A DNA stretch of 39,675 nt. Origin: Armatimonadota bacterium. GTDB lineage: Bacteria > Armatimonadota > JAAZEB01. Shown here one piece after another: positions 2,766 through 16,230 of the stretch. A program made the position numbers and the translations under genes. The stretch covers positions 1-39,675 of the forward strand of contig JAAZEB010000202.1 of the NCBI GenBank assembly GCA_012512505.1, given 5' to 3'. A model generated the notes under the pieces. The model did no database searches. It was not told where the DNA came from and saw nothing but the letters and a program-made list of their open reading frames with translations. Position 1 is the first letter of the stretch; the number at the start of each line of letters is the position of its first letter.

Positions 2766-3620
2766 ATGCGACGAATGCGATGGATCGCGCCGTTGGCGGT
2801 GGCCGGCCTGTTGCTGGCCACTGCGGCGCGCGCAGAGCAGCTGCCCTGGCGGACTGATGTCAAAGAAGCGCTTGCTGAGGGAACCAGAGCCGACCGCCTG
2901 GTCATGCTCAGCTTCACCGATACGGATTGTGAGTGGTGCGACCGCATGGACAGCGAGACGCTGTCGAACGCGGACGTCGTGAAGGCGTGCGAGCGGGTCA
3001 TCCCGGTGCGGGTGGATGTGAACACGGCGCCGGAGCTGGCCCGGCAGTACGGCATCGAGGGCGTGCCTTCCTTCATCTTCGTGGAGGGCTCCGGGGATGA
3101 GGTTGGCCGCATCGTCGGCTTCTTGCCGGCGCCCATCTTCCTGGACCGCCTGCAGCAAGTGCTGGATGATCAGCAGAAGGTGGTCGACCTGCGCAAGCAG
3201 GTGTCCGAGAACCCCAACGACTACGAGGCAAAGGCCAACCTGGCGCGCATCTACATCGAGCGGCGTCAGGGCGACCTGGCCGCCCCCCTGGTGGATGCCC
3301 TGGCGGCGCTGCCCAAGGATGACGCGCCGGCAGACATGGCCGAGATGCTCCTGGGCACCGGCATCGCCTACGGCTCGCGCGGCAATAACGACCGCGCGCT
3401 GGTCTACCTGGAGAAGGTGATCCAGGGCTATCCGGGCACCGAGGAGGCGGAGTGGGCCCAGTTCTTCACCGGGCTGGCCCTCGGCCTCAAGGGAGAGCGT
3501 GAAGCGGCGATCCAGCAACTGGAGAAGGTGATCGCCACGGTAAAAAGCGAGGTGGTGCGCGAGCGCGCGCGCATGTTGCTCGAGCGCTTCCGCGAGGAGC
3601 CCGCGCCACCCAGCCTCTAG
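2766..3620 (+). CDS. Exported thioredoxin-fold protein with C-terminal TPR repeats
   Basis: A 284-residue protein with a signal peptide (1-23, cleavage after Ala-Arg-Ala). Residues about 28-140 form a thioredoxin-like domain of the Thioredoxin_7 type with the redox pair Cys55-Glu-Trp-Cys58 and the cis-proline Val-Pro101-Ser-Phe. A helical region follows, with TPR-like repeats from about 150 to 275. The Cys pair suggests a periplasmic disulfide reductase or oxidase; the TPR part would dock a client. The upstream Shine-Dalgarno is weak. It is convergent with the dehydrogenase gene, with a hairpin between the stops. The family assignment is firm, the substrate unknown. Confidence 0.85.
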   Translation: MRRMRWIAPLAVAGLLLATAARAEQLPWRTDVKEALAEGTRADRLVMLSFTDTDCEWCDRMDSETLSNADVVKACERVIPVRVDVNTAPELARQYGIEGVPSFIFVEGSGDEVGRIVGFLPAPIFLDRLQQVLDDQQKVVDLRKQVSENPNDYEAKANLARIYIERRQGDLAAPLVDALAALPKDDAPADMAEMLLGTGIAYGSRGNNDRALVYLEKVIQGYPGTEEAEWAQFFTGLALGLKGEREAAIQQLEKVIATVKSEVVRERARMLLERFREEPAPPSL

Positions 3621-3642
3621 CGAGAGCCAAGCGGCAAGCGTC

Positions 3643-3674
3643 GGGGCACGGGGGAGCTTCTTCCCTCGTGCCCC
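3643..3674. terminator. Bidirectional hairpin between convergent genes
   Basis: GGGGCACGGGGGA and TTCCCTCGTGCCCC pair over about 13 bp with one G-T wobble around a short loop. It sits 23 bases after the thioredoxin-TPR stop and 25 bases after the dehydrogenase stop on the other strand. No clear T-run follows. Confidence 0.6.
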
Positions 3675-10428: not shown

Positions 10429-11760
10429 TCACAGGTTGTAGGCCGCTTCGCCGTGCTGGCTGATGTCGAGGCCGGCCTCCTCGTGTTCCTTGGAGACGCG
10501 CAGCCCCAGGAGGGCGTTGATCACCTTGAGGATGAGGAAGGTCATCACGCCGGCATAGAGCATGGTGACGACGACACCGATGGCCTGCTTGCCCAGCAGA
10601 GCGGCATTGCCATAGAAGAGGCCGTCGGCGCCGGCCGCGTTGACCGCGGTGGTGGCGAAAAGCCCGGTTGCCAGCGCCCCCCAGGTGCCGCCCACGCCGT
10701 GCACCCCGAAAGTGTCGAGCGAGTCGTCGTAGCCGAGGCGGCTCTTGAGCAGCACGGCGCCGTAGCACAGGGCGCCCGCGCCCGCGCCGATCACCACCGC
10801 CGCCAGCGGCGTGACGAAGCCGGCGGCCGGGGTGATGCCCACCAGGCCGGCCACCGCTCCCGAGGCGGCCCCCAACGCCGTCGGCTGCTTGCGGTGCCAC
10901 CACTCCACCAGCATCCAGACCAGCGCCCCGCTGGCCGCCGCCGTGTTGGTGGTAACGAAGGCGACGGTGCTCAACTGCCCGGCGGCGATGGCACTCCCAG
11001 CGTTGAAGCCAAACCAGCCGAACCACAGCAGCGCCGTGCCGAGCAGCGTCATCGTCAGGTTGTGCGGCCGCATCTCCTCGTGCGGGTAGCCATGGCGCTT
11101 GCCCATTACCAGCACCGCCACCAGCGCGCTGACCCCGGAGGAGATGTGGACCACGGTGCCGCCGGCGAAGTCCAGGGCACCGAGCTGCTTGAGCCAGCCG
11201 GCGGTGCCAGCCGCCGGGTCACCTCCCCAAACCCAGTGGGCAATCGGGTCGTAGACGAGCGTGGCCCACGCCACCATGAAGAGCAGGTAGGCGCTGAACT
11301 TCTTACGCTCGGCAAAGGCGCCGGTGATCAGCGCCGGGGTGATGATGGCGAACATCGCCTGGTAGATCATGAACGCCTGGTGCGGGATCGTCGCCCCGTA
11401 CACCGGGTTCGGCTCCAGGCCGACGCCGTTGAGGCCCAGCCACGCCAGGCTGCCGATCAGGTGCGACACATCCGGGCCGAACGCCAACGTGTAGCCCCAG
11501 AGGACCCACTGCACGCTGATCACGGCCACGGCCACGAAGCTCTGCAGAATGGTCGCCAGCGCGTTCTTGGAGCGCACCATGCCGCCATAAAAAAGCGCCA
11601 GACCCGGCGTCATCAGCATCACCAGCGCCGCCGAGATCAAGATGAACGCCGTGTCGCCCGGGTCTACCCGAACGCCCTCCTCGGCCGCCAGCGCCCCGGC
11701 ACCAGTGCCAACCACCAATAGCACGATCCCTATCAGAACATTGCGGAGACGCGATCCCAT
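10429..11760 (-). CDS. amt: Ammonium transporter (Amt family)
   Basis: A 443-residue Amt/Rh channel that moves ammonium across the inner membrane. Residues 1-26 look like a cleavable signal peptide, as in E. coli AmtB. About eleven helices follow. The pore histidines are His205 ([10 protein letters not shown]) and His354 (TFGVHGVGG). The block [20 protein letters not shown] and the DPIAHWVWG loop are classical. The C-terminal tail with [21 protein letters not shown] is the segment that senses the PII protein GlnK, yet no glnK lies beside it, which is unusual. The start has a G-rich ribosome site (GGGGGG). Nitrogen control is suggested by the 11-bp operator array and promoter upstream. Confidence 0.95.
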
Positions 11761-11791
11761 GAAGACCCCCCGGGGATGCCGGTGACGGATT

Positions 11792-11814
11792 GCGGGCAGC
11801 CCAAGGCTGCCCGC
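11792..11814 (-). other. Perfect hairpin in the amt leader
   Basis: GCGGGCAGCC (11792-11801) and GGCTGCCCGC (11805-11814) form a 10-bp perfect stem with a 3-base loop. It lies inside the predicted amt 5' UTR, 32 bases before the start codon. No T-run follows, so it may stabilise the mRNA or act in attenuation. No known riboswitch is recognised. Confidence 0.55.
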
Positions 11815-11868
11815 CAGACCATCCCCTACCCTCACCCAGCCGGTAGCCGGCAGTGCGAGACCGGTTTC

Positions 11869-11874
11869 ATTGTA
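11869..11874 (-). promoter_or_regulatory. amt promoter -10 element
   Basis: On the minus strand TACAAT is one base off the -10 consensus. At 17-18 bp upstream there is no match to TTGACA; instead the position falls on the 11-bp repeat array, which ends exactly 10 bp away. This fits an activator-dependent promoter with a transcript start near 11861 and a leader of about 100 nt. Confidence 0.6.
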
Positions 11875-11884
11875 CCCGGGGTTT

Positions 11885-11944
11885 GTTTCGCGTCCGTTTC
11901 ACCCCCGTTACATCTCTGTTGCCGCCCGGTAACAGCTCTGTTTC
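11885..11944 (-). promoter_or_regulatory. Six-unit 11-bp operator array, GlnR-box-like
   Basis: Six 5-mers start at 11885, 11896, 11907, 11918, 11929 and 11940, always exactly 11 bp apart. Read towards amt they are GAAAC, GTTAC, GCAAC, GTAAC, GAAAC, GAAAC, each followed by six variable bases. This is the known layout of the binding site of actinobacterial GlnR, an OmpR-family nitrogen regulator (GTnAC and GAAAC half-sites with 6-bp spacing). The array ends 10 bp upstream of the amt -10. The regulator gene is not in the window, and the name GlnR is an inference. Confidence 0.7.
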
Positions 11945-11963: not shown

Positions 11964-12803
11964 TCAGTCGGGGTCCGGGGGAAGTGTGGTACCGGTGGGG
12001 CTCTCCGCCGTTGAACCGCGCAGCAGCAGCAACCCCAGCACCACGCGATAGACGCCAAACGGGGTGAGGCCAAGGTGGGCCACGGCGCGCAGCATCCAGG
12101 CGGCGGCCGCGTAGCCCACCACCGCCGAGACGGCAAACCCGACGGCCAGCGGCAGGCGCTGCTGCCGGGGGATGCCACGGCGCGGCAGATCGCGCAGCCC
12201 CCAAACGCCGGCGCCGGCGAGGATCGGCACGCCAAGAAGAAAGGAGAAACGCACCGCGGCGGGAAGGCTGAGGCCGGCCACCACGCCCGCCGCGATCGTG
12301 ATCCCGGAGCGCGACACGCCCGGTAGGAACGCCAGCGCCTGCGCCAGGCCCACCACCACGGCGTCGCGCCCGCCGGGCTGCCAGTGCACGCCGGCTGCCG
12401 GGCGGAACTGGTCGACGGCGATGAGCACGCCCCCCATCAGCAGGGTGAGGGCGGCCACCTGCCACGGCCGACGGAAACAAGCCCGCGCCGGGCCCTCCAC
12501 CAAGACCCCGGCCACCACGGCCGGCAGGCACGCCACGGCAACCCACAGCAGCGGCAGCGCGTTCCCCGCCGCGGCGCCCTGGAGCAGGGCGAGCCAGTCG
12601 TGACGCAGCGCCGCCAGCAGGCCAGCCAGGCAGCCAAGGTGCAGCACAATGTCTACGTCGAGCGAGTGGCGCGGCCAACGCATCAGCCGGGAGAGCAGCA
12701 CGGTGTGGGCAGAGCTGCTGACCGGCAAGAACTCGGTCAACCCCTGCACGGCCCCCAGGGCGGCTGCCCGGCGGACCCCGATCGTTTTCTGCTGGCGCGT
12801 CAC
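11964..12803 (-). CDS. uppP: Undecaprenyl-diphosphatase (BacA/UppP family)
   Basis: A 279-residue integral membrane enzyme that removes one phosphate from undecaprenyl diphosphate to recycle the lipid carrier of cell-wall synthesis. The two signature loops are GLTEFLPVSSSAH (21-33) and PGVSRSG (161-167), which form the active site. Hydrophobic helices fill the rest, and length is normal. The only possible start is the GTG at 12803: an in-frame TAA lies two codons before it, and there is no properly spaced Shine-Dalgarno. A -10 hexamer ends six bases upstream, so the mRNA is probably leaderless. The gene is transcribed towards amt, but the operator array and the amt promoter separate them. Confidence 0.93.
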   Translation of the reverse strand: MTRQQKTIGVRRAAALGAVQGLTEFLPVSSSAHTVLLSRLMRWPRHSLDVDIVLHLGCLAGLLAALRHDWLALLQGAAAGNALPLLWVAVACLPAVVAGVLVEGPARACFRRPWQVAALTLLMGGVLIAVDQFRPAAGVHWQPGGRDAVVVGLAQALAFLPGVSRSGITIAAGVVAGLSLPAAVRFSFLLGVPILAGAGVWGLRDLPRRGIPRQQRLPLAVGFAVSAVVGYAAAAWMLRAVAHLGLTPFGVYRVVLGLLLLRGSTAESPTGTTLPPDPD

Positions 12804-12808
12804 GCCTT

Positions 12809-12837
12809 ATGATACCATGCCCGGCAGCCGGGTGCAA
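12809..12837 (-). promoter_or_regulatory. uppP promoter, predicted leaderless transcript
   Basis: On the minus strand TTGCAC (12837-12832), 17 bp, then TATCAT (12814-12809). Transcription would start at about 12803-12801, which is the GTG start codon of uppP. Confidence 0.6.
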
Positions 12838-12863
12838 ACGCCACGCCTCCAGCGGCGGGCCTG

Positions 12864-12887
12864 GGCGTAGGAGACGTCTCCGATGCC
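12864..12887 (+). repeat. Dispersed repeat R2, partial copy (palindrome)
   Basis: GGCGTAGGAGACGTCTCC followed by GATGCC is a near-palindrome centred on GGAGACGTCTCC. It shares its core with the palindrome at 4947-4966. It lies directly beside the R1 copy at 12918, suggesting the two repeats can travel or be retained together. Confidence 0.5.
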
Positions 12888-12917
12888 GAGGGGGTGTTCT
12901 TCATCCAGGCAACTGGC

Positions 12918-12975
12918 CGGAGTGCCCGAGCCATCGAGCTTCGGCGGTCTGGAGCCGCAGCACGCGCGCCAGGAG
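12918..12975 (+). repeat. Dispersed repeat R1, decayed copy
   Basis: CGGAGT (12918-12923) is followed by GCCCGA, GCCA, TCGAGC, the first hairpin with one mismatch. The next part, TTCGGCGGTCTGGAGCCGCA, matches the other copies, but the second hairpin and closing ACTCCG are degraded. About 25 bases before it (GGGGGTGTTCTTCATCCAGG) are shared with the copy near 19200. Confidence 0.6.
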
Positions 12976-13016
12976 TCGGTTCGGCGCGGTCGAATCTGTG
13001 CCGTGAGGATATGCCG

Positions 13017-14129
13017 ATGCCGCAAGCAAGCCGTTCGTTCCGCGAGGAGATCCTGGGAAAGGTCCGCGGCGACCAGGTGCCACGGATCCCGTTTGCCACC
13101 TACAACCTCCACCCGTTCGGGAGCCATGGCGACGACCCTTCCTACGCGCCGCTGCTGGCGCTGGGCGAGCGCCAGGCGGGCATGCTGGTCAAGGCCGACC
13201 TGCGTCGCGTCGGCGGCAGCGACGGCGAGCGGGAATGGCGGGTGGAGAACTTGCCCGGCGAGACCCGGACCACCACCGTCTGGCACACGCCCAAAGGTGA
13301 CCTGCGCTCGGTGACGGCGACGCCCCACGGCCAGCCAAGCTACGTGGTGGAGCCGTTCATCAAGAGTGACGCGGACATCGCGCGCGTGCTCTCGGTGCCT
13401 TACACGCCCCCTCAGTTCGATTCCTCCGGGGTGCGCGCCCTGCTGGAGCAGATCGGGACGCGGGGCGTCCTCTACCTGAGCTACCCGGACCCGATGTACG
13501 CGGCGGCCTCGCTGTTCGACTACGAGGAGTTCGTGGTGCGCTGCGTGACGGAGCCAGAGCGCCTGCAGGAACTGATCGATGCCTTCGCCGAGCGCGCCGC
13601 TGGCGAGGTGGAACGCCTGGCGGCCGCGTCCGCCGGGCTGCCGGTGCTGTTCTACACCGCCGGGCCAGAGCTGGCCACGCCACCAATGCTCCCGCCGAGC
13701 GTCTTTGCGCGCTTCGTGACCCCCCACCAGAAGCGGATCATCGGCATCCTCCACCGGCACGGGCACCTGGCGTGCATCCACTGCCACGGCCGCGTCCGCC
13801 TGGTGCTCGATGAGATCCTGGAGACCGGCGCCGATGCCCTGGAGCCTATCGAGCCACCGCCGCAAGGCGACATCTCCCTCGCGGAGCTATTGGAGCGCGT
13901 TGCCGGGCGCTTGTGCCTGATGGGCTACGTTCAGGACCAGGAGTTCTACCGCTCCCGGCCAGGGGAGATCCGCCGCCATGTGGCGGAGGTCGCTGCCCTC
14001 CTGAACGCCTCGTCGCGCTACGTGATGCTGCCGACCTGCACGCCGTTCCAGCATCCGGCCTCGCCGGCCTACGTCGCCGCCTACACCGAGTGGATCGAGG
14101 CGGCGGCCGAACTGCTGCCCGGCGGGTAG
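13017..14129 (+). CDS. Uroporphyrinogen decarboxylase-fold (methyltransferase-like) protein
   Basis: A 370-residue member of the URO-D superfamily (PF01208-like), which holds haem-pathway HemE and many corrinoid or cofactor methyltransferases (MtaA, CmuA). ATG at 13017 is chosen because GAGG lies eight bases upstream; ATG at 13011 is also possible. The frame runs further up through repeat R1, which is not coding. Cys253, His255, His257 and Cys341 (LPTCTPF) are candidate zinc ligands of the kind seen in methyltransferases, and the HemE substrate-binding arginine pattern is not obvious. A methyltransferase-like function is therefore more likely than HemE, but the substrate is unknown. A distant paralogue is at 22941-23894. 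The gene stands alone. Confidence 0.75.
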   Translation: MPQASRSFREEILGKVRGDQVPRIPFATYNLHPFGSHGDDPSYAPLLALGERQAGMLVKADLRRVGGSDGEREWRVENLPGETRTTTVWHTPKGDLRSVTATPHGQPSYVVEPFIKSDADIARVLSVPYTPPQFDSSGVRALLEQIGTRGVLYLSYPDPMYAAASLFDYEEFVVRCVTEPERLQELIDAFAERAAGEVERLAAASAGLPVLFYTAGPELATPPMLPPSVFARFVTPHQKRIIGILHRHGHLACIHCHGRVRLVLDEILETGADALEPIEPPPQGDISLAELLERVAGRLCLMGYVQDQEFYRSRPGEIRRHVAEVAALLNASSRYVMLPTCTPFQHPASPAYVAAYTEWIEAAAELLPGG

Positions 14130-14222
14130 CCCGCGAATGCCAGTGACCAGGTTCCGTCGACGAACAGACCGGCCCGCGCGCGGGCACGGTTTCTCGTGGA
14201 TAGATCGTGAGGAGTTGGAGGC

Positions 14223-15035
14223 ATGCTGGAAGCGTTCAGCACGCTGCACCCGGTAGTGCAGGCACTGATAGGCACCCTGTTCACCTGGTTCGTCACCGCC
14301 CTGGGGGCTGCCGGCGTCTTCCTCACCCGGCAGGTAGACCGCCGGGTCTTCGATGGTCTGCTCGGCTTCGCCGGTGGGGTGATGATCGCCGCCAGCTACT
14401 GGTCGCTGCTGGCGCCGGCAATCGAGATGTCCTCCGGCCGATCGCTGCCTGCCTGGGTGCCGGCGGCGGTGGGGTTCCTGCTGGGGGGCGCATTCCTGCG
14501 CCTGGTGGACCGGCTGCTGCCGCATCTTCACCCGGGCCTGCCGCTGGAGGAGGCTGAGGGCCCGAAAACCACCTGGCGGCGCACCACGCTGTTGATCCTG
14601 GCGATCACCCTGCACAACCTGCCAGAGGGATTGGCGGTAGGCGTCGCCTTCGGTGCCGCGGCCGTGGGGATGCCAGAGGCGAGCGTTGCCGCCGCCATCG
14701 CGCTGGCCATCGGCATCGGCCTGCAGAACTTCCCAGAGGGGATGGCCGTTTCCATGCCACTGCGCCGCGAGGGCCTCTCGCGCTTCAAGAGCTTCTGGTA
14801 CGGTCAGATGTCTGGAATGGTGGAGCCGGTCGCCGGGATGCTGGGCGCCGCCTTCGTGCTGGTGGCCATGCCGATCCTCCCCTACGCGCTCGCCTTCGCC
14901 GCTGGCGCGATGATCTTCGTCGTGGCCGAAGACCTGCTCCCCGAGGCCGGACAGGGCGGCAACGTCCACTGGGCCACCACCGGGGTGATGCTCGGCTTCA
15001 CCGTGATGATGATCCTCGACGTTTCCCTTGGCTGA
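14223..15035 (+). CDS. ZIP family divalent-metal transporter
   Basis: A 270-residue protein with about eight helices. Helix 4 carries HNLPEG (131-136) and helix 5 QNFPEG (168-173), the binuclear metal site of ZIP transporters. Glu201 in helix 6 (GMVEPV) adds a further ligand. A short acidic/His loop (HLHPGLPLEEAE) lies between helices 3 and 4. It most resembles the GufA/ZupT-type subgroup, which imports zinc and related metals. AGGAG lies eight bases before the ATG. It is co-oriented with selD, 142 bp downstream; no functional link is known. Confidence 0.88.
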   Translation: MLEAFSTLHPVVQALIGTLFTWFVTALGAAGVFLTRQVDRRVFDGLLGFAGGVMIAASYWSLLAPAIEMSSGRSLPAWVPAAVGFLLGGAFLRLVDRLLPHLHPGLPLEEAEGPKTTWRRTTLLILAITLHNLPEGLAVGVAFGAAAVGMPEASVAAAIALAIGIGLQNFPEGMAVSMPLRREGLSRFKSFWYGQMSGMVEPVAGMLGAAFVLVAMPILPYALAFAAGAMIFVVAEDLLPEAGQGGNVHWATTGVMLGFTVMMILDVSLG

Positions 15036-15177
15036 GGCAGCGCCCGCTTGCTTTGCAGGCCCCTTCCCTTCAGCGGCGATCTGTGGTAAGCTAAGTGGAG
15101 CATCCGGTAGGTATACTGCCGCTCGTGGCGCGGTGCGAGAGGCCGCGCGGGTAACGCATGCGAAAGGGGGTGAAGCC

Positions 15178-16230
15178 ATGGCAGACGCAGAGCCGATCCG
15201 GCTGACCACGCTGTCGCACGGCGCCGGGTGAGCGTGCAAACTGAGCCCAGGGGACCTGGCGCAAGTATTAGCAGCAATCCCGAGAGCCACCGATGCCAAC
15301 CTGCTGGTGGGCACCGAGAGCGCCGATGACGCGGCCGTCTACCGCCTCGGGCCGGACCAGGCGGTCGTCTTCACCGTGGACTACTTCACGCCCATCGTGG
15401 ACGACCCTTACCAGTTCGGGCGCATCGCGGCGGCCAACGCCTTCAGCGATACCTGGGCGATGGGCGGCGAGCCTGCCCTGGCGCTGAACATCGTCGGCTT
15501 TCCCTCGCGCACGCTGCCGCTCACTCTCTTGCAAGAGATTCTGCGCGGCGGTGCCGCGACGGCCGCGCAGGCCGGTGTGCTGGTGGCTGGCGGCCACTCG
15601 ATTGATGACCCGGAGCCGAAGTACGGGATGGCCGTCGTCGGCTTCGTCCATCCCGACCGGGTGTTCACCAACATCGGCGCGCGGCCGGGCGACCGCCTTT
15701 ACCTTACCAAGCCGCTCGGGATCGGCATCATCGCCACCGGCATCAAGCAGGAGCGCGCGAGCCAGGAGATGGTCGAGCGCGCCATCGAGGTGATGACAAC
15801 GCTGAACCAGGGCGGGTCGCGGGCGATGCGCGCGGCGGGGGCGCACGCGGCCACCGACGTCACCGGCTACGGCCTGCTGGGCCACCTGCGCGAGATGCTG
15901 GCCGGCGGCGGCATCGGCGCGCGCGTCTCCCTTTCGCGGGTGCCGGTGATCGAAGGAACCTGGGACCTAGTACGTGCCGACGTGTGCCCCGGGGGCACGC
16001 GCCGCAACCTGGCCGCCGTGGAGCGCCAGGTGGACTTCGCCCCCCAGCTCGATGAGGCCGAGCGCCTCCTGCTGTGCGACGCCCAAACCTCCGGCGGGCT
16101 CCTGATCGCGGTCGCTCCCGAGCGGGCGGCCGCCCTGGAGGAGGCGCTGCGCGCGGAGGGCACGCTGGCTGCCGCCTGCATCGGCGAGATCACCGACAAC
16201 CCCGCGGCAAGGATCGAGGTGGTTCGGTAG
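15178..16230 (+). CDS. selD: Selenide, water dikinase, selenocysteine-containing
   Basis: A 350-residue enzyme making selenophosphate from selenide and ATP. The gene must be read through an in-frame UGA at 15229-15231 (residue 18). It starts at ATG 15178 with GGGGGTG five bases upstream, runs ...TLSHGAG, then Sec18, then ACKLSPGDLAQVL. This aligns exactly with SHGAGCGCK of E. coli SelD, where the position is catalytic Cys17. Beyond it are GTESADDAAVYRL (ATP/Mg binding), the FSDTWAMGG and GGHSI motifs, TDVTGYGLLGHL and CDAQTSGGLLIAV, all typical. A plain gene caller would split or truncate it, giving a start near 15307. It implies the organism has SelA, SelB and tRNA-Sec elsewhere. The product both is a selenoprotein and feeds their synthesis. 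Confidence 0.95.
15229..15259 (+). promoter_or_regulatory. UGA selenocysteine codon and bacterial SECIS hairpin
   Basis: Twenty bases after the UGA (15229-15231) the stem CCAGG (15247-15251)/CCTGG (15255-15259) closes a GGA loop. A small apical loop beginning with G, placed 16-37 nt after UGA, fits the bacterial SECIS bound by SelB. It lies within coding sequence. The lower stem is imperfect. Confidence 0.65.

Follow-up and report, generated by a model that had tools for sequence, protein, structure and literature searches.

A probable GlnR-type operator array upstream of an ammonium transporter gene in Armatimonadota

Introduction

GlnR is described as a nitrogen regulator of actinomycetes. 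Direct repeats of 11 bp are common to the OmpR family, and in PhoB/PhoP boxes such repeats lie upstream of a -10 element whose -35 element is weak or absent. The GlnR operator consensus comprises GTnAC/GnAAC half-sites, and the GlnR transcription complex contains four DNA-binding domains arranged head-to-tail (PMC10704036). The amtB promoter of Streptomyces coelicolor carries three GlnR boxes with six sites, of which a2 overlaps the start of the -35 element, and some actinobacterial targets, such as gdhA, are repressed by GlnR (PMC5826061). GlnR regulation itself is thus known; its presence in Armatimonadota appears to be unreported, as no report was found in the open-access literature searched. 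Here, we analysed a 39,675-nt stretch of DNA (the window), which represents contig C104 of a 5.66-Mb genome (G000), and compared its amt promoter with these systems.

Results

Inspection of the region upstream of amt revealed exactly six minus-strand GNNAC half-sites (11944 to 11885) with an exact 11-bp period, and the adjoining 11-bp register did not read GNNAC on either side. From the distal to the proximal end, the half-sites were separated by agagct, cgggcg, agagat, gggggt, and ggacgc, and the last was followed by aaaccccggg and TACAAT (Table 1). The best -35 match for this hexamer at spacers of 15–19 bp reached only 3/6 positions of TTGACA. The original prediction of six half-sites followed by a TACAAT box without a -35 element, in a segment (11864-11944) that covers both array and -10, was therefore reproduced, and the half-sites fit the actinobacterial GlnR consensus GTnAC/GnAAC, as it had proposed (PMC10704036). 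Its view that six units are longer than usual did not hold, since S. coelicolor amtB also has six sites (PMC5826061).

Table 1. Features of the amt promoter region in the window
Feature	Position	Strand	Remarks
Half-site 1 (distal), GAAAC	11940..11944	-	
Half-site 2, GTTAC (a-type)	11929..11933	-	
Half-site 3, GCAAC (b-type)	11918..11922	-	
Half-site 4, GTAAC (a-type)	11907..11911	-	
Half-site 5, GAAAC	11896..11900	-	Where a -35 element would begin
Half-site 6 (proximal), GAAAC	11885..11889	-	10 bp from the -10 box; relatives show the same spacing
-10 hexamer, TACAAT	11869..11874	-	No -35 match
Stretch from -10 to amt start codon, containing the amt leader	11761..11868	-	Inferred from -10 and start codon
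amt, ammonium transporter, 443 aa (P0001)	10429..11760	-	NCBIfam TIGR00836, 488 bits; Pfam PF00909
uppP-like undecaprenyl-diphosphatase gene	11964..12803	-	Upstream; array lies in the gap between this gene and amt

Apart from the array before amt, neither strand of the window contained a run of at least three GNNAC units. Under a second-order Markov null, 100 simulated windows contained on average 0.42 runs of three units and 0.01 runs of four, and no longer run arose. The minus strand of the window also contained three consecutive ORFs without a Pfam or NCBIfam match (12807-13865, 13887-15314, and 15268-15885).

A whole-genome search with a four-unit pattern matched the amt array, an array before glnA on C174 (GTAAC-GTTAC-GTAAC-GAAAC, 10 bp, TATTAT), and one chance-looking site on another contig, and the same pattern read backward gave one match. 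A sequence-only array model (R1), trained on 12 arrays from this genome and its relatives, returned only four sites across the 5.66 Mb at E ≤ 10, each before nitrogen genes, with E values of 2e-6 (glnA), 8e-4 (amt), 0.015 (C207), and 0.52 (C87, weak taken alone); the C207 and C87 sites were absent from the training set. The C207 site (GAAAC-GTAAC-GTTAC, 10 bp, TATAAT) lay ahead of a second glutamine synthetase gene, and the C87 site (TTTAC-GTTAC-GTAAT-GTAAC, 10 bp, TAAAGT) lay ahead of an omp-glnK pair. Further arrays near nitrogen genes, which the original prediction had anticipated, were thus present at glnA, the second glutamine synthetase gene, and the omp-glnK pair.

Two PII genes were found in the genome, on C49 and C87; the one outside C87, which in our reading lies near a glnE-like gene, had no array before it. 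The claim that amt lacks an adjacent glnK was correct for the amt contig, which has no PII gene, but glnK, which has its own array on a different contig, would still be part of the apparent regulon. Behind the C87 array, a 227-aa protein without a family match is followed by the PII gene (L245:2593-3276 and 3302-3643; G000:C87), and by our own reading this protein may be of the outer-membrane type.

The genome encoded nine OmpR-family regulators, among which P0002, on contig C385, stood out. Its best solved-structure matches were 8hig, 8hml, and 8hih (E values of 2e-43 to 2e-39), which we take to be mycobacterial GlnR, their entry titles being generic; MtrA followed at 6e-29. This assignment is consistent with the GlnR structures in PMC10704036. 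The DNA-binding domain of P0002 matched the OmpR-family winged-helix domain PF00486 at 7e-29. The receiver domain PF00072 gave no match in P0002 but matched two canonical regulators of this genome at 1e-32 and 1e-25. In the P0002 receiver, the acidic pair ED was replaced by SN and K by E, with D53 retained and invariant in the alignment. Pfam GlnR_1st (PF21695) matched 12 of the 16 aligned proteins (best E 8.7e-9) and did not match P0002; in the same-family relative G002, its E value was 9e-6, just under the curated cut-off. The P0002 gene is divergent from an argC-like gene, and reading of the ORFs on C385 revealed no evident histidine kinase. P0002 therefore corresponds to the expected OmpR-family member whose GlnR-like receiver is degenerate.

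Phylogenetic analysis of the regulators separated P0002 and 37 other rows from 14 canonical OmpR regulators with a support of 100/100, although this outgroup was small. The P0002 side comprised atypical regulators of Armatimonadota, Chloroflexi, and Latescibacterota together with 8hig and 8hih, and its inner forks were too weak to distinguish descent from transfer. Canonical OmpR regulators were present in nearly every genome of the comparison.

In an rpoB tree, three named Armatimonadetes genomes nested among the phylum-mates of our genome, separately from the rows of Chloroflexi, Nitrospirae, and Latescibacterota. Some deep forks were weakly supported, and a Tectomicrobia row with a branch length of 10, which looks like a wrong reading frame, was ignored. 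The tree thus places the genome in Armatimonadota, a lineage far from Actinobacteria. Its 16S rRNA gene appears to hold insertions, because the match (G000:C18:775-2525) spans 1751 bases against a model of 1533 positions.

The 80 nearest amt loci of named genomes were scanned, and only one, in a Chloroflexi genome (L043), had three units in a row directly before amt. Arrays were few in this set because most of the homologues came from other phyla, such as Nitrospirae, and relatives chosen by kinship were therefore needed. In such relatives, arrays of 2–6 units with the 10-bp spacing were located before amt, glnA, glnK, or nirB, and the 11-bp period was kept before amt and glnA, in line with the original prediction. 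Arrays of 2–6 units with the 10-bp spacing preceded amt in G061, G063, G033, G020, G006, G003, G045, G021, G009, G005, and G014, and the Chloroflexi genome G064 also carried an amt-upstream array with this spacing. Glutamine synthetase genes were preceded by arrays in G001, G012, G005, G044, G034, G036, G062, G023, and G003, with weaker glnA sites in G002, G070 (Latescibacterota), and G064 and G069 (both Chloroflexi). Neither of the same-family relatives, G001 and G002, yielded an amt match at 1e-30, but both kept a glnA array. The glnR gene adjoined a glutamine synthetase gene in many relatives, and the G033 site lay ahead of such a glnR-GS pair.

In the relatives, GNNAC spacing peaks at 11, 22, and 33 bp were confined to upstream regions read on the sense strand. 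TAnnnT was found exactly 10 bp away in 16 of 35 upstream sense-strand site pairs, and the control pairs numbered 1 in 94 kb of coding sequence, 5 on the reverse strand, and 0 in upstream regions of genomes without GlnR.

An R1 scan of 61 genomes at E ≤ 0.1, divided into core-GlnR and other genomes by our reading of the regulator tree, detected arrays in 20 of 24 core-GlnR genomes versus 6 of 37 others (Fisher p = 2e-7, ignoring shared ancestry). When the training genomes were left out, the counts were 12/16 versus 6/37 (p = 7e-5 in the same test, again ignoring shared ancestry). Four genomes with core GlnR (G016, G029, G032, and G052) had no array at this threshold. Among the inspected sites, 24 of 29 lay before nitrogen genes, among them GSIII (G055) and nirB (G051), the other genes among the 24 being named from their sequences and from amt and glnA searches; none of the four inspected sites in GlnR-less genomes did so.

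Three further loci were recorded among the relatives. On contig C203 of G051 (loci L128 and L271), a two-unit array that stands before nirB, 10 bp from TATACT, lies about 4 kb from the gene for a diverged GlnR-like protein. A three-unit array precedes a ZIP-family transporter gene in G054, a genome with core GlnR (C110:7919-7962, L263). In G040 (C27:353-412, L270), the array model picked up a series of 11-bp tandem repeats resembling GTAACTCTCTC.

Discussion

Our sequence comparisons strongly support nitrogen control of the GlnR type in Armatimonadota. The arrays, P0002, the relatives, and the rpoB placement all favour the original prediction of such control far from Actinobacteria. The six-fold repeat before amt is very probably a GlnR docking site, and we regard it as highly likely that a GlnR-type activator uses the array as its operator, with the apparently orphan OmpR-family protein P0002 as the binding partner. 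Since P0002 is encoded on a different contig from amt, we infer its pairing with the amt operator. By analogy with the actinobacterial GlnR family, the direction of control would be activation under nitrogen shortage, and the signal is probably not aspartate phosphorylation because the receiver pocket is degenerate.

By analogy with the GlnR transcription complex (PMC10704036), P0002 would line up head-to-tail on the six half-sites, and three dimers covering the array would be the simplest arrangement. The proximal dimer would sit in place of the missing -35 element and recruit RNA polymerase to TACAAT, so that amt would be transcribed when nitrogen is scarce. P0002 would also control glnA, the second glutamine synthetase gene, and the omp-like gene with glnK, each of which has an array with the 10-bp spacing.

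The arrays might instead be bound by a different OmpR-family regulator, for example a PhoB/RegX3-like one, and merely resemble GlnR sites, given that nine such regulators are encoded and that 11-bp direct repeats are common in the family. We consider this very improbable, as array presence goes with the GlnR-like protein throughout the phylum whereas canonical regulators are nearly ubiquitous, the targets are nitrogen genes, and the half-sites follow the published GlnR consensus (PMC10704036) and not Pho boxes. A Pho box reading of the array was rejected because neither the half-site sequence nor the targets fit.

That GlnR represses amt or has mixed effects would have precedent in actinobacterial targets such as gdhA (PMC5826061), but the array lies upstream of a -35-less -10 element at a fixed distance, which is the layout of an activated promoter, and overlaps neither the -10 element nor the start, making this reading very improbable. 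We give practically no credence to a chance or structural repeat without a regulatory role: occasional three-unit runs are expected in a GC-rich genome, but the array has six units, arrays are associated with nitrogen genes genome-wide, and they are conserved in relatives, so that together with the Markov null a chance repeat was ruled out.

With operation through a GlnR-type activator as the preferred reading, GlnR control would not be confined to actinomycetes, because the switch and its docking sites recur across a distant phylum. We lean slightly towards the view that GlnR nitrogen control predates Actinobacteria or spread well beyond them. On this view, it is phylum-wide in Armatimonadota, also occurs in some Chloroflexi and Latescibacterota, and has diverged receivers whose way of sensing nitrogen may differ. 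The diverged subclade of G051, G014, and G008 may represent a second version, one member of which has a site before nirB. The regulator, operators, and targets form a complete set in the little-studied phylum Armatimonadota, a concrete regulon that is open to testing and lets the origin of GlnR be traced. The diverged receivers are useful for finding what GlnR senses, which is still unsettled.

Like GlnR of actinomycetes (Streptomyces, Mycobacterium, and Amycolatopsis), P0002 is an OmpR-family, apparently orphan regulator with a degenerate receiver in which the aspartate is kept. The arrays share with actinomycete operators the GTnAC-n6-GnAAC half-sites at 11 bp and the nitrogen-assimilation targets (PMC10704036, PMC5826061), and the amt array resembles S. 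coelicolor amtB in its six sites and in the overlap of half-site 5 with the -35 start, as seen for a2. PhoB/PhoP boxes differ in their half-site sequence, canonical phosphorylated receiver, and phosphate-gene targets. Unlike the actinomycete systems, the host here belongs to Armatimonadota, related proteins also occur in genomes of Chloroflexi and Latescibacterota, and the receiver is strongly diverged. All six half-sites stand in one unbroken 11-bp register, unlike those of actinomycete GlnR promoters, and the gene arrangement also differs: in relatives, glnR often adjoins a glutamine synthetase gene, and in this genome amt lacks an adjacent glnK.
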